Assembly (NCBI GenBank): GCA_037893245.1 | Contig: JBAIAA010001105.1 | Coordinates: forward strand, 408,720-472,719 | Reading direction: 5' to 3' | Source of the DNA: Crossaster papposus | Taxonomy: Eukaryota > Echinodermata > Asteroidea > Velatida > Solasteridae | Length of the DNA: 64,000 bases | Part shown: positions 2,599 to 36,700 of the stretch, piece by piece | How positions within the stretch are numbered: position 1 is the first letter of the stretch | Layout of the letters: each line of letters opens with the position of its first letter | Position numbers and translations under genes: made by a program | The notes under the pieces: generated by a model | Database searches by the model: none | Seen by the model: the letters and a program-made list of their open reading frames with translations, nothing else | Told to the model about the DNA's origin: nothing

Positions 2599-3413
2599 AC
2601 CCCCCCCCCTGGGAGGGGTGAACCTGTACTACACTGGTTGTTGCGTCTAGTAGGTGCTAGACTTGTGACGTTGCACGGGACAAATTTACCAGGGGGACAC
2701 GTTTAACGTTGGACGGGGAGACAGAATTACCTGGAGGGGGACAGAAATGCTGCAAACAATGCCAGGTCTTCACCCAGAGTGTAGACTGTCTGTGTTTGAG
2801 CCTGCCACTGTTACTGAGATTCAAAGAATTATCATGAAATCTCCTTCAAAATCTTGTGAACTGGATCCAGTGTCGACATCCATGATAAAGCAAAACATTG
2901 ATATATTTGCTCCGTACATCACTAATCTTGTAAACAAATCTCTTAGCTCCGGTTGTTTCCCCGATAGCCTCAAAGTTTCCTACATCAGGCCGCTAATAAA
3001 GAAACCCAACCTGGACAAGGAGGTATTTAAAAACTACAGACCAATTGCGAACTTAAAATATCTTGGAAAAGTCATCGAACGAGTAGTTTCATCACGTATT
3101 TGCGATCACATTCATGCTTTCAACCTGTCAGACATGTTCCAGTCGGCATACAAGCCTTTCCATGGGACAGAAGCTGCACTTGTCCGTGTGAGCAACGACA
3201 TTCTTTCAGCAATGGACAATGGTAATCTTACAGCACTAGTCCTGTTAGACTTGAGTGCTGCCTTTGACACTGTTGATCACAACATCCTTCTCTCTCGGCT
3301 CAAGAATTACCTCGGCATACAGGACACCGCCCTAGCATGGTGCAAATCGTATCTCTTCAATAGAACTCAGCAAATAGAACTCGGAAAGAGACAACCATGG
3401 ACAACATGTGTGT

Positions 3414-5898
3414 TTTCCCACTTTTTTACTTAATCACACAATATCTCCTCCACCCATCCGAAGTCATATTCGCTGGCGACTTCAACATCCATGTTGACGA
3501 TATGTCCAACACCAATGCAAAACAGTTTCAGTATTTGCTCTCATCGTACGGTCTCGTCCAACACATTCATGAGCCAACTCATCGACATGGACATTGTCTC
3601 GATTTAGTGATAACGCGTGAAAATGTCACACCTATAATCTCAAATATTACAATCCACCCTGGACTTTCGGATCACTATGCGATCATCGGCTGCGTTGGCT
3701 TTAAGAAGCCACCCCTCCCAACTATAACTGTGAAAACTCGGCGATGGCGTAATATCGATATCACTGCATTTTGTCACGATATTGGAACATGTCTATCAAA
3801 CATCGACCTCGGCACTGATCAGGACCTTGAAGCTTGTGTTGAAGAGTATGAATGTATGGTGCGTGAAAATGTGGACAAACATGCTCCACAGGCAACACGA
3901 TCCATCAAAGTTCGACCGGAACCACGTTGGTTTAATGATGACATCCGAGCAGCAAGGAAGATTCGCCGTCAGCTCGAACGGAGGTGGCGTGCCTACGGCA
4001 AGCAAGAGGCTGATCGGCAGAGCTTTCGCAAGCAATGCAATGTTGTGAACGACATGATCAACCAAGCGAAAGTGGGTCACTTTTCATCACTGGTGCAGCA
4101 AAGCTCTGGAGACCAGAAAAAGCTGTTCAGGGTTATCGACAAGCTGTTACATAAGTCTACGTCCCCAGTCCTTCCGTCCTCATATTCTGACCAGGACCTT
4201 GCAAATGCATTTTCAGATTATTTTGTCACAAAGATTACAAACATCCGATCCTCATTGATGCCGGTGTCCAACCCCGTCCCACTAGTAGAGCCACATGCAG
4301 ATCCCAAGTGCAGACTGTCTTATTTTGAGCCTACAAATGTTAATGAAATTAAGCGTGTCATCATGAACTCGCCGTCAAAATCTTGCGAACTTGACCCTAT
4401 TCCAACTATGATGATAAAGCAACACATTGATGTGTTTGCTCCTTTTATTACCGAGGTGGTGAACAAATCGTTGGATTCTGGTTGCTTTCCGGACAACCTA
4501 AAGGTTTCCTACATTCGGCCACTTCTAAAGAAGTCCAGCCTGGACAAGGAGATTCTGAAAAACTACAGACCCGTCTCAAACCTGAAGTACCTGGGAAAAA
4601 CCATCGAGCGTATTGTCTCATCCCGCATCTCTGACCACATTCAAGACCATGAGCTATCGGACGTTTTCCAGTCTGCATACAAGCCATTCCACGGGACGGA
4701 AGTTGCGCTTGTTAGGGTCAGTAATGATATCCTGTCTTCGATGGATAATGGTGATATCACTGCGCTGGTTATGCTCGATTTGAGTGCAGCATTCGATACC
4801 GTTGATCATGGCATCCTCTTATCTCGACTTCAAAACTATCTCGGTATACACGACACGGCTCTCGAATGGTGCAGGTCCTATCTCTCAAATAGAACCCAGC
4901 ATGTCTGCATTGGCAATGCAATATCAGATCCTGTTGTTTTAGAGTACTCTGTACCACAAGGGTCTGTGCTAGGCCCACAGTGGTTTACTCTTTATACCTT
5001 GCCAATTCGTGATATCATCTTGAAACATCATCTGAACTACCACGTCTATGCTGACGATACTCAACTCTATATAACCTTCAAGTCTTCACAGGAGCCTGCC
5101 GATTCTTCGATTGCAAGACTGGAGCAATGCATCTCTGAGATCCGATGCTGGATGAAAAACAACTTTCTAAAGCTGAATGAGGAAAAGACGGAGTTTCTCT
5201 TGTTTGGATCACGCCAACAATTAAAAAAGGTGTCTGTGCCATTTATTACAATCGGTGATGCACAGATAGCCCCATCGTTGCAGGCCCGGAACTTGGGGGT
5301 TATATTTGATTCAGCAATGACATTTAAACCTCACGTCGCTAACACTGTCCGTTTGGCATCATTCCAAATTAGAAACATTGGTCGTATTCGCAAGTATTTG
5401 AATAGGAGTGCTACCGAGCACATTATCCATGCATTTGTGACTTCACGACTAGACAACGGCAATTCACTACTCTACGGACTCCCTCAGAATCAAATATACC
5501 GTCTTCAACGTCTTCAAAATACTGCTGCCCGCATCATCACCTTATCTAGGAGGAACTGTCACATAACCCCCATTTTGAAGGAACTACACTGGCTTCCTGT
5601 CTCCCAAAGGATTGTTTTCAAACTCATGCTTCTGGTCCACAAAGCTCTCAACAACAAGGCTCCCTACTACATTAAGGAACTACTACATGAATATTCTCCA
5701 GCAAGAACTCTTAGATCAAGTAACCAGCAACTTCTCAAGGAACCAATTGCTAAACGAACATGGGGCGCCATATCTTTTTCTGTTGCAGCTCCTCGACTTT
5801 GGAATTCATTGCCACTTGAACTCAGATCATGCCATTGTACAACTAGGTTCAAATCGCTTCTTAAAACTCACTTGATGTCGCAAATTTTTAAGGATTAA
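3414..5898 (+). CDS. LINE ORF2 fragment: endonuclease C-terminus plus reverse transcriptase
   Basis: The frame is open for about 830 codons. It begins in the apurinic-type endonuclease with AGDFNIHVDD and continues with the DLVI and GLSDHYAIIG motifs of that fold. The reverse transcriptase follows: SYIRPLLKK, NYRPVSNLKYLGKTIER, MLDLSAAFDTVDH, SVPQGSVLGPQ and the catalytic YADD in NYHVYADDTQLYITF. The C-terminal region has HWLPVSQRIVFKLMLLVHKA, RTWGAISFSVAAPRLWNSLP and a stop at 5896-5898. These motifs fit the CR1/L2 group, which copies its RNA at the target site. The upstream endonuclease residues and ORF1 are absent, so it is not autonomous. The first in-frame Met (3397) belongs to flanking sequence and is not a natural start. 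Confidence 0.9.
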
Positions 5899-5929
5899 TT
5901 ACTTGTTGTTGTCTACAGCGCCTTGAGCA

Positions 5930-5961
5930 CCCTGCAGGGTGGATATGTGCGCTTTACAAAT

Positions 5962-5990
<29 letters not shown>
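5930..5990 (+). other. Conserved LINE 3'-end hairpin and ATT tail
   Basis: CACCCTGCAGGGTG can fold as a short stem just before GGATATGTGCGCTTTACAA and the (ATT)n tail. The same stem occurs in copy A at about 7032-7048 with a changed loop (CACCCAGCAGGGTG), so the stem is conserved while the loop varies. By analogy with L2/CR1 elements it is probably the site recognised by the element's own reverse transcriptase. Confidence 0.6.
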
Positions 5991-5996
<6 letters not shown>

Positions 5997-7201
5997 GTGT
6001 GTATCGGCACTGCGATATCAGACCCTGTTGTCCTAAATTACTCTGTGCCACAGGGGTCAGTACTGGGCCCACAGTGGTTTACGCTGTACACTTTACCGAT
6101 TCGTGACATCATCCTGAAATTTAACCTGAATTACCATGTGTACGCAGATGACACTCAGCTATACATCACGTTTAAATCTTCTCAAGAACATGCCAATGCC
6201 TCCATTGAAAGACTTGAGAAATGCATTCAAGAGATTCGACGTTGGATGCAACAGAACTTCCTGAAGTTGAATGACGAAAAGACAGAGTTCCTTCTATTCG
6301 GGTCCCGTCGAAAATTATCAAAGGTTTCAGTGCCATACATTTCCATCGGTGATGCTCAGATAGCCCCCTCGTTGCAAGCACGGAACTTAGGGGTTATTTT
6401 TGATTCATCAATGACACTTCAACCACACATCAACAACATCATACGTCTGTCATCATTTCACATCCGGAATATTGGTAGGATACGCAAGTACTTGGACAAG
6501 AGTGCCACTGAAAAAGTCATTCATGCATTCGTTACTTCTCGTCTTGACAACGGCAATGCTCTTCTCTGCAGTCTTCCTAACAACCAGATTTCTCGTCTTC
6601 AACGCCTCCAAAACACCGCAGCCCGCATCGTGACACTGTCTAGAAAATCCTGTTCTATCACCCCCATTCTGAAACAACTTCACTGGCTCCCTATCTCTCA
6701 ACGAATCATCTTCAAGCTAATGCTCATCGTCCACAAAGCACTTCACGGCAAGGCTCCCCATTATATCTCAGAACTACTTCAAGTTTACACTCCGTTAAGG
6801 AATCTTCGATCCAGTACCATGCTTCTCCTCAAGGAACCCAAGTCTCGACACTCCTGGGGTGACAGGTCTTTTTCTGTAGCTGCACCACGCATCTGGAACT
6901 CTCTACCACTCGATATTAGATCTTGTCTTTGTACCACAAAATTCAAATTACTCCTCAAAACTTATCTTATGTCACAGGTCTTTACGGACTAATTTAGTTG
7001 TGTCTGTTTCTTTTGTTTGTTTTTTGCGCCTTGAACACCCAGCAGGGTGGATATGTGCGCATTACAAGTCTCTAAATTATTATTATTATTAGAAATACCT
7101 AGGTAAATGTGTCCCCCCGGACAGATTTACCGGGTCACGGCCTGTAAGTCTGTCCGGGGGGACACATTTACCAGGGGGGACAGAATTACCTTTCACACCG
7201 G

Positions 7202-21716: not shown

Positions 21717-24700
21717 CTGGTGGAGAAAATGGTTGTTTTTAAACTATTTTTTTTCTCCATTGCATGTTGTCATCTGATTTTGTAAAATAAAAAGGACAAA
21801 TTAGTGCAAAAGTGTTGTTGTGTATTGGTCTAGTTTAATTGCCTTATGGAAGCTGATATGACGTCAATTTTACAACTCTTACGTCCGCAAATGTGGGCCA
21901 GTAGTTTTCCGCTAAATTTTGTAATGCTTCTTCCTCTACACCTACACACAGTGTATAAACAGTTTATAAACAATGGCCGGCTATGGGAAAGACAATGTTG
22001 CAGTCACTTATAAAATATTGCATTAGACTACAGCCAGAAATGCCCGTTCCCTTTGGGAATACATTTTTACCGACCTTTGCTACAGCACAACCTAGACTAA
22101 GACTGAGAAAGCAGGGCCTGGCAGTTAATAGCAATTTTAATTTGCAGTGACTGTGTACAGATCGAGTGGGCCAGTTTCTGGATGTCGAGTTTGGTACAAG
22201 AAAAACAACAACGCCAAGTGCTTATAAAGCCCTGACTATCTTCGGGATGCGGCGAAATAAACAAGTAAAATAAATTGTGGTATCTATGATTATATTTGGA
22301 GTGCTGTGGTCTCGTGGTCTGGAGCATTGAATTTGTAATCTGTAAGTAAAGCTACAGGTTGTGGGCTCGAATCCAGCCTGGGACAACTATGCGTGTGCCC
22401 TTGGGCAAGGCACTTTGTCACTCATTGCTTTTCTCCACCAGGAGTAAATGGGTAACTGTGAGGGCAGAGGTGGTTATTGTGGTTGATTTAGCTGCGCTTT
22501 GCACCGAAATGGCAGCATCGAGCTGTATACTCCCCAGGGATCTGAGATGGTATTTAGAATGTTTCACGGTCCCAATGACCAGGGTAATAATGGGAGAGGG
22601 CCTTGAGTATGGAACGCCAAACGTACCAATTTATGATGTTACTGGATACAAGTTATTACGTGATGTCGTCAATCCATTACGTGATGTGGTCAATCCATTA
22701 TGTGATGTGGTCAATCCATTATGTGACGTGGTCAATCCATTATGTGATGTAGTCAATCCATTATGTGACGTGGTCAATCCATTATGTGATGTAGTCAATC
22801 CATTATGTGATGTAGTCAATCCATTATGTGATGTGGTCAGTGTATTATGTGATGTAGTCAATCCATTATGTGATGTGGTCAATCCATTATGTGATGTCGT
22901 CCATCCATTATGTGATGTCGTGAATCCATTATGTGATGTAGTGAACCCATTATGTGATGTAGTCAATCCATTATGTGATGTGGTCAATCCATTATGTGAT
23001 GTGGTCAATCCATTATGTGATGTGGTCAATCCATTATGTGATGTGGTCAATCCATTATGTGATGTGGTCAATCCATTATGTGATGTCGTCCATCCATTAT
23101 GTGATGTCGTCCATCCATTATGTGATGTCGTGAATCCATTATGTGATGTAGTGAACCCATTATGTGATGTAGTCAATCCATTATGTGATGTGGTCAATCC
23201 ATTATGTGATGTAGTCAATCCATTATGTGATGTAGTCAATCCATTATGTGATGTGGTCAATCCATTATGTGATGTGGTCAATCCATTATGTGATGTGGTC
23301 AATCCATTATGTGATGTGGTCAATCCATTATGTGATGTGGTCAATCCATTATGTGATGTAGTCAATCCATTATGTGATGTAGTCAATCCATTATGTGATG
23401 TCGTCAATCCATTATGTGATGTGGTCAACCATTATGTGACGTGGTCAATCCATTATGTGATGTGGTCAATCCATTATGTGACGTGGTCAATCCATTATGT
23501 GACGTGGTCAATCCATTATGTGACGTGGTCAATCCATTATGTGATGTGGTCAATCCATTATGTGATGTGGTCAATCCATTATGTGACGTGGTCAATCCAT
23601 TATGTGATGTAGTCAATCCATTATGTGATGTGGTCAGTGTATTATGTGATGTAGTCAACCCGTTATGTGAAGTGGTCAATGCATTACGTGGTGAGCTATC
23701 CCTTTATATAGCCACTGCCGAATTATGTGAGGTCGTCAAGCCATTACGCGGCGTCGTCAATCCATTATATGATGTAAACCCGTGTGTATTGCGCCGGAGC
23801 TATTTCTTGTTTATACCTCCTGCCGAATTATGTGGTGTTGTTAAGCCATTATGCGGTGTCGTAAACCGTTGCGCGTGCGCAGTCACTCCTAGGTTATAGT
23901 GGTCTGTATTGTGCAGCTCAAGGAGAAATATATAGCGTTGAAAGCATGATGCGCGTGTACTGCGTTTAAGCATGGAGGATGGTTTAAGCTATTTTCTGAA
24001 GTGGACACCAGCTAAGAAACTGTGTGCAGATTGCACTCTGACTTTCTTGTACATAGTATAGGCCTACAATACAATTAAATACATCCATGAAAACGCTTTT
24101 TTTCTTTCCTTTTCGTAATAGGAGTCATCAATCAAAATTAAGCTATTTTTACTTGCTCTTTTATACTAGTCAGCAACTCTGGATGTTTAGTAGTAGTATG
24201 AGATTCAGTAAATAAACGAAATCATTATTTTCGTCTTTTGCACAGCGCGAGGGAATCGATTGTAAATAACCTTAAGCAGGGCAAAGCAAGCAGCGTTCGC
24301 TCCGAACCAGTTTGAGAGTTGATAGATTAGATATTACCTTGTTAGAACTTAAAGTGCAGTCAGTGATAGAATATGGCTCGCACAGTACAGATAAACACTG
24401 TCTCAGCTTTGTATTCATGTTGTCATACTGTTTACAAAAGAAAACTGGGGCATCTAAATTTACTTAAGAGGTGCCCGGAAGGGTTATTGCAATTTTACAT
24501 TTTTTTCCATCTTGGCCCACATTATATGTTGCACTGCACTGCCATGTGACCACTATTACTAGTCACACTTCCTTCACATTGCATATCCTTTGTGAAATTA
24601 TAACTGTATACAGCATTTCTTTCACGGAAATACTAATTTTTCTAAAACGTTTGCGCGATGCCAGTACTGACGTGAACGGATTGCATTTCAGAAACTGTTC

Positions 24701-27700
24701 GTCAAAAGCAAAAACAAGAAAGAAATTTAAAATAAAGCACTTTTGTCTGAAAATCCGTTAAAAAACTGTGAATCAAAATACTGCCCATTTTTTAAATATG
24801 GTCCCTCAAACCCTTTTGTGAACCCTCACTGGTTTTCATGTGGTCGGGCGGCCTTGGCAAACGGAATGAATTTGCTGTTCCTGAGCCGGCTTTCATTTTA
24901 TGTGATACGTAATCTCATTGGTTGCTCATTTTTATCAGAAAAATACCCCAATTATTTATTAATCTTTAACAATCGTATATATTCCAGCATATCCGATGAC
25001 CTGGCGATCACTCACATTTTGATCGTAATAGCACTGAGTGGGTACGTGCAAACGTTGATGTACATTCCCTCAAATTTCAACTTTCCGTATACACTGCTAT
25101 AGTTTAATGTGTTATTATTATTATTATTGTTTTTTAAAAATAGTTTCTGCCATTTGTTGTGGTTTAGAATCTCATTTTTTTTCGAAATTACAGAAAGTTC
25201 ATTTCGGATACATTTATATATGGCTATCTTGGCACTGTTTATTCACCCATACAAGACAATGGTATCGCCCTGAGGTTTGGTAGTCGACCTTGATCGACCG
25301 ACACAAAACACGTGGGTAAAAACTTTAATGAGGTACAAGTTAGAAAACGTTTCCATAGCGGCGGGATGGATACGTTGAAATCGATCTTCACTTTCTGTTA
25401 TTTTTCACTCGGCACAAAACCAAGAATACCTAGTATCGGGAAAGTGCTTTTAAACAAAAGGGAGATATGATGCAGCTCAGTGTTGCTTATATGCAAAATT
25501 AAATTAAGACTGGTTTAAAATGAACAACAAATGATACCATGGCCTATAGATAGTGGTCTGGCATGCATGGCCAAGAATTCGTGGTCTGTGCGTAGTTCTG
25601 CAGATTTGGGGTTCTAGCCTGGCCTGGGCTATGTAGAGGTAGCAAGGGGATAAACAGGCACCTGTTCCAGGAATGTCATCTACTCAGTCAAAGGTCAAAC
25701 ACCGGGCGAGTGAAGTTGGCGATACAATCGAAGGACAGTCCCTTGATATCCATTGGGACTCAGTAGGGATTTAGGGACCGCAGCCTTTTGTATTTTAGAA
25801 AGCATGCATACGGACGGCAATTGGAGGGGCATTTTGTTATTGTCATACCGAAATGGCACATAATTTTTCATAAACCTTATGCATGCAATGCAAAAACGAC
25901 AGCGATCGAACCACCAACCTGCAAAACAACGCGCAGACCATAAATTCAATGGCAGACCACATAGGCCATGGCATATTATTCCGTATTCATTTTTACCAAG
26001 TCTTGTTTAATTTTTTGCATACCAACAGCTGCATCATATCTCCTTTTTGTTTAAAAGAATTGTCCTGATAGTGATACTGTGATATTGATACTGGGTTCTT
26101 GGTTCTGTGCTGAGTACAAAATAACAGAAAGGTATATCTTTCCAGGTTTTAATTTGTACAGTATTTATAATCTCAAATTGAATTGGTGTCCCAGAGACGA
26201 AACGAATGATTTTATCAATATTTTACTGAATCTCATACTATATTAAACATCCGGAGTTGCTGACTAGTATATATGAAAGCAAGTAAGAATAGCTTAATTT
26301 TGATTTATGAGTCTTATTACGAAAAGGAAATGAAAAAAAGCGTTTTCATCAATGAATTTAGTTGTATTGTAGGCCTATACTATGCACCATGCTTCCAAAG
26401 CTACATGCATGTACATGTACATGTATATATTTCTCCTTGGGCTGCACTATACAGATCAAACCTTGGAGTGACTGCGCACGCGCAACGGTTTACGACACCG
26501 CATAATGGCTTAACGACACCACATAATTCAGCAGGAGGTATAAACAAGAAATAGCTCCGGCGCAATACACACGGGTTTACATCATATAATGGACTGACGA
26601 CGCCGCATAATGGCTTGACGACCTCACATAATTCGGCAGTGGCTATATAAAGGGATAGCTCACCACGTAATGCATTGACCACTTCATATAACGGGTTGAC
26701 TACATCACATAATACACTGACCACATCACATAATGGATTCACGACATCACATAATGGATTAACCACATCACATAATGGATTGACTACATCGCATAACGGA
26801 TTGACTACATCACATAATGGTTTCACTACATCACATAATGGATTGACTACATCACATAATGGATTGACTACATTACATAATGGTTTCACTACATCACACA
26901 ATGGATTGACTACATCACATAATGGATTCACGACATCACATAATACACTGACCACATCACATAATGGATTGACGACATCACATAATAGATTCACTACGTC
27001 ACATAATGAATCACTACATCACATAATATATTGACTACATCACATAATGGAATCACTACATCACATAATGGATTGACTACATCACATAATGGTTTCACTA
27101 CATCACATAATGGTTTCACTACATCACATAATGGATTCACGACATCACATAATGGAATCACGACATCACATAATGGATGGACGACATCACATAATGGATT
27201 CACGACATCACATAATGGATTGACCACATCACATAATGGATTGACGACATCACATAATAGATTGACTACATCACATATTAGATTCACTACGTCACATAAT
27301 ACATTGACTACATCACATAATACACTGACCACATCACATAATGGATTGACTACATCACATAATGGTTTCACTACATCACATAATGGTTTCACTACATCAC
27401 ATAATGGTTTCACTACATCACATAATGGATTCACGACATCACATAATGGATTGACGACATCACATAATGGATTGACCACATCACATAATGGATTGACTAC
27501 ATCACATAATGGATTGACTACATCACATAATGGATTGACTACATCACATAATACACTGACCACATCACATAATGGAATCACTACATCACACAATGGATTC
27601 ACGACATCACATAATACACTGACCACATCACATAATGGATTCACTACATCACATAATGGATTGACTACATCACATAATGGATTGACTACATCACATAATG

Positions 27701-30700
27701 GATTGACTACATCACATAATGGATTGACCACGTCACATAATGGATTGACTACATCACATAATGGATTGACTACATCACGTAATGGATTGACGACATCACG
27801 TAATAACTTGTATCCAGTAACATCATAAATTGGTACGTTTGGCGTTCCATACTTGAGTACCAGTCTTGGTAGATACGTGCGCTATATAAGAACTGCCTAT
27901 TAATATTATTATGATAACAGTGAGTAAAAGGGGGGGGGGGGGGGGGCACAAAAACTTCAAGAGAATCAACAAAAACAAGCTTCAGGAGATATTTCTTCTT
28001 TTGTGTGTTTATTTTGTGCATATGATATTCAATTGTGTTGAATAATAAACCAATATCTGCTCGAAAGTGCTAATTTGCTCAAAGCAAAACTTGCTGCTTC
28101 AACGACCAGCTGAACCAATTTTATGGAGCTGCTCAGCACAAAAAGAACAATTGCTAAGCAATATTTAAACAATCTTCCTTGGCAAAAAGAGGGTTACAAA
28201 TGTTCAGGTGATGTATATTGTTTGTGACTGCTATTCAGCTATAACAATCTCATGAAATTTTTGCATGTGACCTGATTTTACTAAGCAAGGATTGTTGTGC
28301 TTAAACACATTTGTGTGATTAAGCAGATCTATAAAATTGGCCCCTGTAGTTCTTACTGAGTATGCCCTTTTTGTGCTAAGCACATTTTTTCGTGCTGATC
28401 TAGCAGCTTTAGGAAAATGGCCCATGCACTGTATAACTGTATCACAACAGTTAATAACTGCAATCTCTGCAACAATCTTACCCTATCCCAGAGTTGCGTG
28501 TTTTGTGCTTCGACTTTCAAAATGGCATTCTGCATGGTTCCTATGGTGTCACGCAAACCCACAATCATCTTTTGCATCTCCTCAAAGTTTTCACAAGTTG
28601 GACAATCTGTCAAAACCAGAGAGAAAACAAATACAATTGACATTTCAAATCATGTGAACACGTTGTATCCAAGTTGATGTGCACTTTTCCTTGATTCGTA
28701 CAAAAACAAATGGTGTTTGCAGCTGCTTCGTTCATACAAAACAATTTGCCATTTTGTTGTCACTAATCAATTAAACTTTACGCTGAATTATTGATTGTTT
28801 GTGTCGTGTTAGCATTCCTTGACAGCTGACATGCTATAGGGCACGACCGGAAGTCTCATTGATCAACTCAATACATGTACTACAAAGTTTTTTTTTAAAT
28901 TGGGTAAATATCTCTGGTCTTATCCCCTATAAGTGACAGGAAAAAAGTGGGAAAATTATTAGTAAGGTTAAAAAAAAACAGGGAAAAAGTGGGAAAATTA
29001 AGAGCGAGGTAAACAAAAAAACAGGGAAAAAGTGGAAAAATTAAGACTGAGATGCTGATTAACCCCCTGGATATGCTGATAAATTACGCTATAAAATGCT
29101 GACGACCCCCTTCCTTTTTTCCACCTGAGGCCCCCCCCCCCACCCCCTAATAAAAAAAACTAGCTATGCCACTGATTTGGAGTTTGATATACAAAAAAAA
29201 CATTGAAGTTTGCACTTACGCTGACAGGAATGCAAATCAACACCAAGTTTGAAGTTGGGTTCACATGAACAGTTGTAGCTGCCATCGTAGTTTGTGCAGG
29301 AATGATCACACCCACCATTTTCCTTCAAAAACAACAACAACAACAACAACAACAAGTGAAAAGAAAGCAATTGAATAAGTTTTTTTATCTAAAGGGTAGT
29401 AACATTTTTGACGTGGAACCATGAAACTATAACTGAAAATTAAAAGTAATTACTGTTTATGTTACAAAATAAAAAACTCCGAACCAAAAATGGGGAAGGG
29501 GGTTAATTTGTTTTTAATGCAGGTTTCATCTTCTAAAAGAAATTAACATATTGTAGGTGCATAAACAGGGAATACACTTTATTAATGACCTTTTTTAAGT
29601 ATTTGTTTGACAGGGAGAAAGGGGATGGGGGTGGGTGGGGGGGATCTGACCACTCATTATTAAGCACACAGCTTGGGTCTGACTGGGGTTGATTATATGT
29701 GACCCGCTCCAGGAAAAGATGACATAAGTCACAAAAAATACAAATAGAGTTATGTACATGATTAAAAAGTCCAGGATATGAGCTTTCATTTGGTACATAG
29801 TACAGCTCCATAGCCCCTCCCGTTCTGGTGATATGATGCTTTTGCAAATTAATGGATTCCATGGAATTCAAAATACACAACTGATAAAACAGGCTATGAA
29901 ACACAACAAAACTAAGACAATACATTGGAACCATGCACTTTTAAAAGATTTTGTTTGACCTTATTTATCGAATTACAGCTTTTTGTTAATTACATCTGAA
30001 ATTTTGGATATTAAAGACAAAAAATGAAAATAAAAATTTGAATTTTTGTTTTTACCCTATTAACTTTAACAGGGCATTACTCATAAATGCATAGTGCAAC
30101 TTATGTCACCTTTTCCTGGAGCGGGTCACATATGTCAAGTATAAGTCAGTTAAGATCTCACTCTCTCATTGACACTGTACTCGGCAGTGCTGGTTTTTCT
30201 TATCTGGTTGAATTCTTCCCATTTACCATTTATTCACCAGTAGGTGGGGTTTTATATGAACAGAAGCAAAATCCAACTAATTGTTACGATGCAAAAAAAC
30301 AGCTAGGGTCCATGCTATATGCTGCACAAATAGTAAATACATGATCATGTCATTGATTGCGGTTACGATCTCACTCTCTCATTTACAATAGGCAGTCCCA
30401 GTTTTCCCCTAACCGGTTGAATACTTTACCCTACCTTTAAAGATATCAAAAAGAAAAGAAACAGAACACCTCTGATTGCCTAGCAACAAATGGCCCATAA
30501 TAGGCCTGCACTGCAGGAATCTGCACTGTTTAGGAATCCCAGGTGGATATGTTATATTTGCTTTCTCCTTAATTTACAACATTTGCACAACGGGCGGTTG
30601 CAGGCACTATGAAACTTATTAGCGGCCTACATGGTGTAGCAACAAAGTATATGATTGTCTAGATGGAAAAATAGGGGTTGAGGGTTGGTGGGTGGTGGGT

Positions 30701-33700
30701 AGGGGTTGGGGGTTGGTGGGTGGTGGGTAGGGGGTGGGGGTTGGAGGGTGGGGGGAAGAGAAGAAATTGTTGACAGCTACTAATTCACTTACATTTTGGC
30801 ATTCATCAATGTCTAGACACTGCTTTAGGTTGTCCGGCATTGCTTCAAAGCCTGCTTCACATGAACAACTACAAGACAGAATATTTTTGGTAAAAGCAAG
30901 TAAAAACCTCATACAGCACGAAGGCAGATGCATTCGCTTTTGCGTGAAGTATGAACTGGCCTTAAAGGTAGGATACACCATTGGTAATTGCTTGAATTAT
31001 CAGAAATATCTTAAAGCTATTATCCAAATATCTTAAAGCTTCAGTACTTGTCCCAATATCTTAAAGCTCCATGTCCCAATATCTTAAAGCTCATGTCCCA
31101 ATATCTTAAAGCTCATGTCCCAATATCTTAAAGCTCCATGTCCCAATATCTTAAAGCTCCATGTCCCAATATCTTAAAGCTCCATGTCCCAATATCTTAA
31201 AGCTCCATGTCCCAATATCTTAAAGCTCCATGTCCCAATATCTTAAAGCTCCATGTCCCAATATCTTAAAGCTCCATGTCCCAATATCTTAAAGCTCCAT
31301 GTCCCAATATCTTAAAGCTCCATGTCCCAATATCTTAAAGCTCCATGTCCCAATATCTTAAAGCTCCATGTCCCAATATCTTAAAGCTCCATGTCCCAAT
31401 ATCTTAAAGCTCCATGTCCCAATATCTTAAAGCTCCATGTCCCAATATCTTAAAGCTCCATGTCCCAATATCTTAAAGCTCCATGTCCCAATATCTTAAA
31501 GCTCCATGTCCCAATATCTTAAAGCTCCATGTCCCAATATCTTAAAGCTCCATGTCCCAATATCTTAAAGCTCCATGTCCCAATATCTTAAAGCTCCATG
31601 TCCCAATATCTTAAAGCTCCATGTCCCAATATCTTAAAGCTCCATGTCCCAATATCTTAAAGCTCCATGTCCCAATATCTTAAAGCTCCATGTCCCAATA
31701 TCTTAAAGCTCCATGTCCCAATATCTTAAAGCTACATGTCCCAATATCTTAAAGCTACATGTCCCAATATCTTAAAGCTACATGTCCCAATATCTTAAAG
31801 CTCCATGTCCCAATATCTTAAAGCTCCATGTCCCAATATCTTAAAGCTCCATGTCCCAATATCTTAAAGCTCCATGTCCCAATATCTTAAAGCTCCATGT
31901 CCCAATATCTTAAAGCTCCATGTCCCAATATCTTAAAGCTCCATGTCCCAATATCTTAAAGCTCCATGTCCCAATATCTTAAAGCTACATGTCCCAATTT
32001 GTGACCAGTCAGAGGTCATGTACATTGCATGATGTTTCAGTCGGTAACCTAAAACATTTTTTTTTTTTTTGCTAAGCAAATATTTTCTGTGCTGCGTAAA
32101 CTTGATTTTATTTTGCAGTTCTTTGAAACTTGGCCACTTACTTGTAATGGCCTTCATAGTTTGTACAGATCTGGCTGCAGCCTCCATTGTCTTTCTCGCA
32201 TTCATTGATGTCTACATGGGCAAAGCATTCAAAACGAAATATCAGTTTGTATTGACACCAAACTTTAAAATGACTGGGGGTGATCATTAGTCTTGGTTGC
32301 AAAACGTCCTAATTGCAGGATGCCGCGCGTGTAGGCCGCTGATGCAGCCGCTTTCTAACGTATGCCGTACACCACGCCGTGACTTCGAATAAGATGTCTT
32401 GGCTAACTGACACAATCGCTTTGAAAATTTTGAGCAGAATTGAGTCGCATTTGCATGCGCGTGTGACGTTGCGTGTATAATCGCGTGACGTAACATGCAT
32501 GTTTTTGTTATGTGATGCAATTATGCACGCAACATCACACGCGCATAGAAATGCGACACAATTCGGCTTGAAATTGTTCAAACGATTTTGTCAGTTAGCC
32601 AAGACCATGGAAAATTTGAAATTTGCGATTAATGATACACTCACATATTTTAAGCGACATTTTTACGAAAAATTGAAAGTGAGGCTTGGAACGCATAAAT
32701 AGTCTGGCAACATCCAATTCAACGGTTTACAAGTTTTTGATTTTGTTGCAATGTCGCACAGGCGTGTGCGTGTAAACGAACAAAATAGTAAGCGACGGTT
32801 GCGCGACTTTTGAAATTATCAGTGCGATAAGGACCACGACAACATTCGACAAAATCGCGTATGTGATTCAGAGAGCACAATAAAAAATGGCTTTATCGTG
32901 AATAAAGTGTATTGCAAAATAATGTTGTTATGTGCCATTAACTCAAGTATGTGTGTAAACACCTTCCATCGTGGACCCCCTATTGTCCTTTTTGGAAGGC
33001 CTCCCATAGGTTTTGTACCTGATTTTCAATCATGGACTTTCTGTCAACCGTTGTCCACTAAAGACCATGTGCCCTCTGTTTACATCTATACATTCAAATT
33101 ATGGAGCAGAATCAGTGTCAAAAAGATCGGACGTGTTTTTACAACTCGGATGCTTTCCTAATTCGGATGTATTCCTAATTCGGATGCTTTTTGCAAACTC
33201 GGATGCTTTTTTAATTCGGATGAATTTGTAATTCGGATGCTTTTTGTAAACTCGGATGCTTTTTTAATTCGGATGAATTCGTAATTCGGATGAATTCGTA
33301 ATTCGGATGCTTTTTGTAAACTCGGATGCTTTTTTAATTCGGATGTTTTTTTAATTGGGATGCTTTTCTAGTTCGGATGCTTTTTTAATTCGAATGCTTT
33401 TCTAGCTCGGATGCTTTTTATAAACTCGGATTTTTTGTCAATTTATTTAAAGAATTTTTCGAAATAAACCGTAAATATAACAATACTTTTTCAAACCCTT
33501 GTAGATCATACAGCATATTAGCCACACTTGTTTAACCTTTCCTGTAATTTTGATGAAAAATTACAGTTAAACTAGCTGCCTAATGAACTAAGTAATCCTA
33601 CTTCGAGTTATTTTTATAGATTTGGAAATGAGAATGAAACATTTAAAACAAAATATACCTCACATGTTATCAAAAACTCATACTTTTATTTCATAATCTA

Positions 33701-36700
33701 CAAGATAATGTTACTGGGCATGTGGGTATAGGCTTCAGCCGAACACTAATTAGTGCCTAATTAGCCCGTTTAATAAATCCCCTTTTCAATGCAGCATTGT
33801 AATGCGTTTTTCGGCTGCGAGTATATCTGCCTCTTTAAAACAAAGTGTACATCACATGTTATTCAAACCTCATATTTGTATTTCATAATCTACGAGATCA
33901 TGTTTCTGGGCACACTTAATTTTGGTATAGGCTTCAGCCGAACAGTAATTAGTGCACTCGCACTCGGGCTTATTTGCAATGTTCTCGGTGAATCAGTTTC
34001 GTCAATCAACAATTTCAACAATTAATTTCACCACGCCAGATTTTATGAGAATGATAACTGTTACTTTATTTAATAACACAACAGCCCTTCAACTATAAAG
34101 TTCTGCATCATTAGATGGATCCTAGTAGTTTGTCAGCTTAGAACGTTAGGTAAAATACGGTTTCAGACCGTGTCCATAATTTCTTTTTTATTTCCACCTA
34201 ATATCGCCCCATAATTCTTTGCGATATATAGCACACTTGGGTCAAATGTAAGTTTCTAAGGTCGAGTGCAAATAAGCAGATATTATCAAAACTACATAAA
34301 ATGTAAACAAAGAACAACGGTTATATGTCAAAATTAGCATATAAAAGAATCTTGGAAACTCCGTTCTGCCACTCGTGCTTGAAAGAACACTTGCCAGATA
34401 GAAAGAGTGGGGCACGGAAAGATAGTCCTTGCAGGTGTGCTTTACAGAAATGTACAATTGCAATTCATGTGGCAAAAGTACAGCAATGATAAAAGCAGGT
34501 CTTGAATTTGTAAAACCACACTGTTGCCGTATTGTTTGAAATTTCTATAAAAGGTTTGACAAATAACTCGAAGTAGAATTACTTCCATTAAGCAGCTAAT
34601 TTAACTGTAATTTTTCATCAAAATTACAGGAAAGGTTTTACAATTACAGGAACAAGTGTGGCTAATATGCTGTATGATCTACAAGGGTTTGAAAAAGTAT
34701 TGTTATATTTACGGTTTATTTCGAAAAATTCTTTAAATAAATTGACAAAAAACTTTTTAGAAAATGCATCACCTTTTGCAGCATGTATTAAATATTTGTC
34801 GCCTTTTGGTGAATGCGGACTAAATCCGCGCGGAGAGAACCGGCCGAATACGCGGATACCTTGAGCCAGGTAAAAGCGCGCGAAAGTTGGACGTTAATTG
34901 GAAGTTGAAGTACGACGTTTTGAAAGTTGAACCACGACGTTTTGAAAGTTGAACCACGAGGTTGCCTGTCCGTTTTAGAACATCATAACATTCAAAACGT
35001 CGTGGTTCAAATTTCAAAACGTCGTATGTGCTGACATCGCGGCAGAAATGTGCACATAAATCTGCATATAAATCTGCTGTACGTGAGTGCGACATATATA
35101 GCTGCGCATAATTAAATGTGCAATGAAAATGTACATGTAGTGCCCATCCGTGCGACATCGCACAAATTTGCGTACTAAGAAATCTGCGCAGAACTTGAAA
35201 TCTAAAATAAAAATATGCGACTTTTCAAAAATCTGCCCAGAAAATATTCATTATCACATAAATCTGTGCAGAAATCTACAATAAAATCTTCCACATCTCA
35301 GATATATGCTTAGATATATACGATAACATGTTTGTCATCGTTCAAATTCGCGCAGAATGCGCGAAATCGCAGAATCTGCGATGTGTGATGTCCTTTCAGG
35401 GCCACCCTAGTGCCGGATTGGGAAAGCATCCGATTTGCGAATATGTTCGGTTTGCAAAAAGCATCCGAGTTTACAAAAAGCATTCAAACTAGAAAAGCAT
35501 CCGAATTAAAAAAGCATCCGAGTTTATAAAAAGCATCCGAGCTAGAAAAGCATTCGAATTAAAAAAGCATCCGAACTAGAAAAGCATCCCAATTAAAAAA
35601 ACATCCGAATTAAAAAAGCATCCGAGTTTACAAATAGCATCCGAATTACGAATTCATCCGAATTACGAATTCATCCGAATTAAAAAAGCATCCGAGTTTA
35701 CAAAAAGCATCCGAATTACGAATTCATCCGAATTAAAAAAGCATCCGAGTTTGCAAAAAGCATCCGAATTAGGAATACATCCGAATTAGGAAAGCATCCG
35801 AGTTGTAAAAACACGTCCGATCTTTTTGACACTGATTCTGCTCCATATCAAATGTGCCCGTAAATATGCGCACGCATCGTGTTTTACATCAATTTGGTTA
35901 AGAGGCGACATCAGAGGTCACATAATTCAAAGGTGGTTTGACCTGTGGCGTCACTCCTCAACCAAATTTTATGCAAAACACGATGTGTGCGCATATGGAC
36001 GGGCATATTTGAATACAGATGTAAACACGTAACGTCAGAGGGCACATCGTCTATTTGAATGCGGATACAACTCACCGAGACATGTGCAATTGTCGGCACT
36101 CATGAAGTAGCCCTGGTCACAGCTGCAGGTATAACTGCCCTGGAGATTCAGGCAGTTGTTCAACTGATTACAACAGGCAAAGTTGGACTCGCACTCGTTG
36201 ATGTCCTCACAGGACTGGCTGTCTCTCTGCAGCTCAAAACCCTCATGACACTCGCACCGATGCCTGGACAAAATAAAAGGCAGAGATAGATTGAGGGAAA
36301 TTCGTTTTAAAATGCACAAAATAATTAGCAGGGCGTTTGGGAGCAGCGAGTGGCCTAGGACGGGTCATTCCATGAAGTTGGAACACAAAGTGTGACATTG
36401 GGTCGTATGAATAAAAACTATCAAATGCTATGAAGTACAAGCAAAACGTAAAAGTATTTACTTCAAAGTAAAAGCAATTAAGGAAAAGCAAATGCTTCAA
36501 TTGGAATGAATTAATTTTTTTTTTTACTGTTTAGCATTTACTGGCTGAAATAGCAGTAAATGCATTTTACTTGCAATTGATTGCACAGCCGAATGGTTTA
36601 TAACAATAACAATGGGTTCTTCCATGAAGTTGGAACACAAAGTGTGACATTGGGTCATATGAATAAAAACTAGCAAATGCTACGAAGTACAAGCAAAGAG

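Follow-up and report, generated by a model that had tools for sequence, protein, structure and literature searches.

A minisatellite-armed foldback transposon with IS3EU/GingerRoot-type ends, and a candidate transposase for it, in the echinoderm Crossaster papposus

What moves a transposon whose long inverted arms are built of minisatellite repeats and whose centre encodes no enzyme? The question is raised by a 5244-bp foldback element in a stretch of 64,000 nucleotides from Crossaster papposus (Asteroidea; assembly GCA_037893245.1, contig JBAIAA010001105.1, positions 408,720 to 472,719 of the forward strand), which we call the window. FB/NOF of Drosophila is a Mutator-type foldback, and the long arms of the sea-urchin TU elements have 15-bp units repeated in tandem in their outer part, with target-site duplications of 8 bp. 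We find that the window element is very probably a non-autonomous, internally deleted cut-and-paste transposon that carries minisatellite foldback arms, belongs to the IS3EU/GingerRoot type and is presumably mobilised by a transposase of the rva_4 kind. Comparison across the genome reveals its exact ends, its target-site duplications, empty paralogous sites, a full-length relative, a deletion junction, near-identical dispersed copies and the lineages of its arms.

Results

The foldback element occupies 22608-27851 of the window and consists of two ~1.6-kb inverted arms around a ~1.9-kb centre. This bears out a sequence-only reading of the window, which had described inverted arms of layered build around a centre of about 2 kb. 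Both ends begin with TATGGAACGCCAAACGTACC and are identical for at least 63 bases. Behind each unique end lies an array of a 21-bp unit, ATTATGTGATGTGGTCAATCC, with the right array inverted relative to the left; Tandem Repeats Finder (TRF) counts 49.4 and 54.4 copies. Beside the arrays the inner arms are 95.0% identical (241 bases), a figure that falls to 85.6% in the innermost ~200 (202 aligned), with similarity extending to about 24244 on the left and 26187 on the right and the centre at about 24245-26186. The parts of the element are as follows.

22602..22607, no strand: left target-site duplication CTTGAG, the same as 27852-27857, with a single CTTGAG at five uninterrupted paralogous sites
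22608..27851, plus strand: whole foldback element, A type, 5244 bp, with inverted ends TATGGAACGCCAAACGTACC, a duplication and 91 exact genomic ends
22608..22654, plus strand: left terminal unique end, equal to the right end, its first 14 bp (TATGGAACGCCAAA) common to a second family
22655..23690, plus strand: left array, 48 units by decomposition, arm lineage 1 (TRF 49.4 copies, 93% matches)
23691..24237, plus strand: left inner arm; the right side of the full-length copy C483 shares 93.0% identity with window 22654-24237
24238..24584, plus strand: ~348-bp block of this subfamily, absent from the C483 copy by alignment
24585..26186, plus strand: non-coding centre, no open reading frame (ORF) of 150 amino acids or more
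25632..25641, plus strand: deletion junction, a 10-bp overlap of two C483 matches by alignment
26187..26663, minus strand: right inner arm, the left inner arm in reverse complement at 95.0% and then 85.6% identity
26664..27804, minus strand: right array, 52 units by decomposition, arm lineage 2 (TRF 54.4 copies, 88% matches)
27805..27851, minus strand: right terminal unique end, an inverted copy of the left end
27852..27857, no strand: right target-site duplication CTTGAG, repeating the left one

The block at 24238-24584 includes the final few bases of the match to the right inner arm, and its difference from C483 could be either an insertion or a deletion. The ORF list of the window holds no frame of at least 150 amino acids in the centre, and the frames of that length at 22350-27881 are arrays and arms that happen to stay in frame; we therefore rejected the window copy as a coding element. 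The sequence-only reading was right that the mobilising protein is not encoded here. The central part 24600-25600 has at least 42 matches in the genome (best 40 of 96 candidates scored).

On either side the element is bordered by CTTGAG, a perfect duplication of 6 bp. When the flanks are joined, the resulting 164 bases match an abundant repeat, with E down to 1.6e-57 (best 40 of 2203 candidates scored), and among the matches listed 40 of 40 continue through the junction. Five uninterrupted paralogs align without gaps and carry CTTGAG once each, which settles the 6-bp duplication and the exact ends apart from the inverted-repeat match. A Tc1/mariner-like TA duplication was rejected, because the 6 bp repeat outside the TATGG ends and the empty sites show one CTTGAG. 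The insertion target itself, 22511-22607 together with 27858-27924, is a very abundant repeat and perhaps, at a guess, a short interspersed nuclear element.

The terminal 20 bp recur as 91 exact genomic copies (44 plus, 47 minus; control 0), and their first 14 bp, TATGGAACGCCAAA, at 492 sites versus 5 for a reversed control pattern, so the recurrence of the end is not chance. Apart from such pattern totals, the genome counts given here are lower bounds: the 63-base end search scored the best 40 of 124 candidates, and 100 of the 492 14-bp sites were listed. Among the 91 exact end sites we chose by eye 25 pairs of convergent ends, separated by 130 bp to 22.6 kb; two more pairs, C25 and C1467, have a mismatch in one end. 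With four others, these 27 A-type pairs make up 31 tabled pairs. Perfect 6-bp duplications flank 18 of the 27, one pair (C354) has a perfect 7-bp duplication, three match at 5 of 6 positions and five are without a match. When left and right flanks of the 31 tabled pairs were re-paired at random, 0 of 2000 re-pairings reached 6/6. An 8-bp duplication occurs in 0 of the 31 pairs and was rejected. Of nine single-ended loci, seven were covered as 3-kb stretches. Between them, the 91 ends and the 6-bp duplications that differ among copies uphold the proposal of a foldback transposon family.

Other copies are nearly identical to the one in the window. Over a 2970-bp core, C53 matches the window copy at 99.8% in a stretch of 2557 bp and at 99.3% in one of 418 bp, C160 at 99.6%, C493 at 98.8% and C17 at 97.2%. 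The target-site duplication differs at each, and the spread is accordingly recent. C285 and C650 agree at 99.7% over 1563 bases including the arm (1 mismatch, 3 gapped bases) and have the duplications TCTATC and GACGCG; C485 is a gapped relative at 92-93% identity. At C850 the copy is 130 bp long, scarcely beyond its two ends, within a perfect duplication; if it inserted in that form, the arrays are dispensable for transposition. C25 (L039) and C1467 (L042) have an unusual left arm in common (85% of units), and their duplications match at 2/6 and 5/6; C25 resembles recombined copies reported for the Drosophila element Galileo (PMC3573991). A 15.1-kb span at C435:362292-377409 was rejected as a full-length element: it is an inflated copy that contains a nested B-type foldback and, between its inner arm and right array, about 7.7 kb unmatched to the window element.

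The sequence-only reading had advised a search for complete copies whose centre encodes a transposase, and C483 is such a copy. A-type ends at C483:294970 (+) and 317569 (-), with the same arms, enclose 22.6 kb. Its left side corresponds to window 25632-27851 (92.4%, 2.2 kb); window 22654-24237 (93.0%) and 24585-25641 (97.9%) correspond to its right side. The two matches overlap by 10 bp at window 25632-25641, and the ~16.8 kb between them (C483 297188-314013) is missing from the window copy. This missing part carries a transposase gene read from five exons (L053:3660-8677), with GT...AG borders where exons 2, 3 and 4 each join the next exon. The joined translation matches Pfam rva_4 (E 1.7e-86), and the closest NCBIfam models are IS481 (6.4e-15) and IS3 (4.5e-07), both under the model cut-offs. 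N-terminal of the rva_4 core, Pfam gave only weak, below-cut-off matches of helix-turn-helix type, in a search not aimed at an HHCC zinc domain. The same element contains a HECT-like piece (L082:2580-2918, C483:307179-307517, minus strand; E 7.6e-08) with further likely HECT exons upstream, judged by eye. A HECT ubiquitin-ligase-like gene is thus a possible passenger of the full-length transposon.

A second family links enzyme and ends. At C106:1239925-1264543 (24.6 kb), both ends begin with TATGGAACGCCAAAGAGGCATAAACC, the duplication is GTACAC, and each end has 18.3 copies of another 21-bp unit. A multi-exon transposase lies within (rva_4 4.6e-84; NCBIfam IS481 1.5e-21 and IS3 1.4e-11, under the model cut-offs). 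The first 14 bp are common to this family and the A type, and the sequences diverge beyond. A shorter element with C106-type ends is nested in an A-type element (L034:1907-4550, duplication ATTATG), and another relative lies at L031:3112-4886 with a duplication match of 5/6. That two families alike only in their terminal 14 bp each include an rva_4-bearing copy is our main reason for linking the enzyme to the ends.

The window holds a second foldback at 33100-35847, with other arms, ends TATGGAGCAGAATCAGTGTC, 17-bp units and a 6-bp duplication, TCAAAT. Its end recurs at 845 genomic sites (up to 1 mismatch; control 0). The ends and duplication of this foldback fit the IS3EU/GingerRoot superfamily.

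Arrays were cut into units and the order of unit variants was compared across 13 copies, of which nine yielded both arms, three yielded one and C43 yielded none because its inner arm went unrecognised. The sequence-only reading saw the two window arrays agree in each unit at their ends but not in their middles, and took this to suggest unequal exchange in the array centres. The first claim largely fails: 33% of aligned units are alike, against a shuffled-control mean of 28% and maximum of 31%. The outer exact run is one unit (five with one mismatch per unit), and at the inner end one unit is exact and the final, longer one has a single mismatch. Each array has its counterparts in other copies instead. 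Partners of the left array are C493.R (92%) and C53.L (89%), within a range of 86-92% that takes in C160.L and C17.R; those of the right are C160.R (92%) and C493.L (88%), within a range of 73-92% that takes in C53.R and C17.L. Hence there are two arm lineages, inherited jointly at each transposition, and their separate inheritance with gains and losses of blocks replaces the proposed unequal exchange. Repeated blocks are visible in C493.R and C160.R, and, as read from unit order, the arrays of this subfamily have changed by block gains and losses of units.

A unit-for-unit pattern at the ends is present in C483, where 40 outer units agree within one mismatch and 85% of units agree between the arms (control mean 53%, maximum 60%). 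Agreement is partial in C144 (58%; control mean 32%) and C435a (50%; control mean 37%), and the arms of C160 and C17 agree no better than their shuffled controls. It looks as though one arm was occasionally copied onto the other in C483, C144 and C435a.

Elsewhere in the window, 31005-31998 holds 43 copies of a 23-bp unit (97% matches), and at 1950-2561 a 306-bp unit stands in perfect tandem duplication, followed by a poly-C run. Positions 2669-6992 contain an (ATT)n tract at 5965 and a frame (3364-5898) for the endonuclease and reverse transcriptase of a non-LTR retrotransposon; this frame seems to be inserted within the reverse-transcriptase frame of a relative (2669-3433 and 5892-6992). In the wider assembly, the COX1 matches on the multi-megabase contig C8 (5208663 and 2872001) are readable in the standard code, unlike the mitochondrial copy, which has 13 TGA; C8 is perhaps a bacterial symbiont or contaminant. 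The mitochondrial contig C1841 (16,330 bp) carries a COI frame with ND4L and COII behind it (genes named by eye). In this frame AAA stands at positions judged to be Asn (7 codons), AGA at Ser positions (7) and ATA at Ile positions (21), a code which, with the gene order, indicates an echinoderm host.

Discussion

The termini of the window element and of the copies read, TATGGAACGCC...GGCGTTCCATA, begin and end in TA, 6-bp duplications flank 18 of the 27 A-type pairs, and the relatives C483 and C106 encode an IS481/IS3-related DDD/E transposase that the window copy is without. For IS3EU, Kojima describes termini that are always TA..TA and duplications of usually 6 bp, and treats IS3EU and GingerRoot as one lineage (PMC10045372). 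Fungal IS3EU families are described with TAYGG..CCRTA ends and 6-bp duplications, and may carry extra genes, namely TET/JBP and alpha-kinase (PMC12730594). The combination of TATGG...CCATA ends, 6 bp and enzyme would accordingly place the element in IS3EU/GingerRoot rather than with Mutator (FB) or P (Galileo), and from the same ends, duplications and IS481/IS3 similarity we infer that rva_4 is the Pfam name of this superfamily. The 6-bp length also differs from the 4-bp duplications of Ginger1 and the 4-5-bp duplications of Ginger2 (PMC10045372).

Within IS3EU/GingerRoot, the likeness covers the TA...TA ends, the 6-bp duplications, a DDE transposase nearest to IS481/IS3 models and the presence of extra genes. 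What differs here is the long minisatellite foldback arms and the HECT-like gene; we found neither for the superfamily, and no IS3EU/GingerRoot foldback described, in the literature searched (titles and the starts of abstracts, with Repbase and subscription papers outside it). In an oyster paper, a table assigns two satellite repeats to DNA/IS3EU, which hints that this superfamily and tandem repeats come together elsewhere; the word 'foldback' occurs there only in a reference title (PMC8268682). Galileo, a P-superfamily element of Drosophila, offers a parallel in form: foldback-like arms, tandem repeats that differ in number between arms, deletion derivatives, and chimeric copies without matching duplications (PMC3573991). 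Its 7-bp duplications and THAP P-type transposase set it apart from the 6 bp (7 bp in one pair) and the helix-turn-helix-like plus integrase-like enzyme seen here, for which Pfam returned no THAP match at E up to 0.1.

Several alternatives were weighed. The arm plan is like that of Drosophila FB/NOF, Tetris and Tm1, with inverted arms of tandem repeats around a non-coding centre, and a Mutator-superfamily foldback would share this anatomy. The Tetris authors assign most foldbacks tentatively to Mutator, Galileo being one of the exceptions; they give 8-10 bp duplications for Tetris, say that this length applies to most foldbacks, and suggest a Mutator assignment with no enzyme found (PMC4079207); Tm1 is Mutator/Foldback by title (PMC3169594). 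Yet the duplications here are 6 bp and not 8-10, and the enzyme between the same ends matches rva_4 and IS481/IS3, with no Mutator model among the profile matches, so a Mutator origin is highly improbable and the FB-type membership first proposed gives way to these differences and to the TA...TA ends. Membership of the sea-urchin TU family (1983), with movement by TU's own mover, deserves somewhat more weight, though we consider it unlikely. An echinoderm host and a layered arm plan are in keeping with TU, but the units are 21 bp and the duplications 6 bp, where TU, compared by description only, has 15 and 8.

A different doubt concerns the enzyme. The ends might be recognised by some unrelated transposase, with the rva_4 genes in C483 and C106 as passengers; the genome has at least 150 rva_4 matches (best 150 of 434 candidates), and one chance inclusion is possible. 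Against this, related multi-exon rva_4 genes lie between the ends of copies from two families with common 14-bp termini and different sequence beyond. Both the ends and the length of the duplication agree with reports on a superfamily whose enzymes are IS481/IS3-like, which makes the passenger explanation quite improbable. An assembly artefact, whether false palindrome or collapsed array, is the least credible of all. Long inverted arrays are hard to assemble and their lengths could be wrong, but the two arms are unlike in unit order and inner sequence, flanks differ among the tabled copies, and the same two arm types recur together in independent copies. The single locus or collapsing palindrome that the sequence-only reading had named as fatal to a transposon family is likewise excluded by 91 ends, varied duplications and arms unlike each other.

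Other points count against placing the element with IS3EU/GingerRoot and its rva_4 enzyme. Transposition is read from sequence rather than observed, and the superfamily placement relies on ends, duplication length and IS481/IS3 similarity rather than on a tree. Five of the 27 pairs are without a duplication, possibly through recombined or wrongly paired ends. The C483 exons were joined by eye with the border between exons 1 and 2 left unplaced, and the joined protein has one surplus residue at the exon 4-5 join. The C483 duplication is imperfect (CAATAG/CAATGG, 5/6) and the copy is 92-98% identical to the window element, so C483 need be neither active nor the direct parent.

From this evidence we infer how a cut-and-paste element of the IS3EU/GingerRoot type could have come to its present form. 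An rva_4 transposase (IS481/IS3-like, DDE integrase-like) would be made by full-length copies elsewhere in the genome and act in trans, recognising the TATGGAACGCCAAA ends, excising the element and reinserting it through a 6-bp staggered cut. Deletion between short matches, 10 bp in this case, would have removed the transposase and HECT genes, and the remnant of arms and a ~2-kb centre would then have spread in a recent burst. Blocks of units are gained and lost in the 21-bp arrays, and some copies seem to have had one arm overwritten by its partner. The units may act as extra transposase-binding sites, by analogy with Galileo, in which the arm repeats contain binding sites for the THAP domain of the transposase (PMC3688188).

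The genomic comparison suggests that foldback arms occur with an IS3EU/GingerRoot-like transposase, a lineage for which the literature searched yielded no described foldback. A full-length relative with a non-Mutator transposase supports the independent evolution of foldback arms around unrelated transposases, and C483 supplies a concrete candidate enzyme for array-bearing ends. Because unit order can be read arm by arm, the family also lends itself to tracing how long inverted minisatellites grow and how copying between arms proceeds. More speculatively, an echinoderm IS3EU/GingerRoot transposase might run a whole class of foldbacks, TU included, in which several families retain TATGGA ends for recognition while their minisatellite arms have repeatedly given way to unrelated arrays (the 21-bp ATTATGTGATGTGGTCAATCC, the 21-bp CGATCGGTCTTTTACATCGAC and the 17-bp TCGGATGCTTTTCTAAT), an idea we consider rather unlikely. 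The C483 relative is a possible route to the mover of the echinoderm TU elements.

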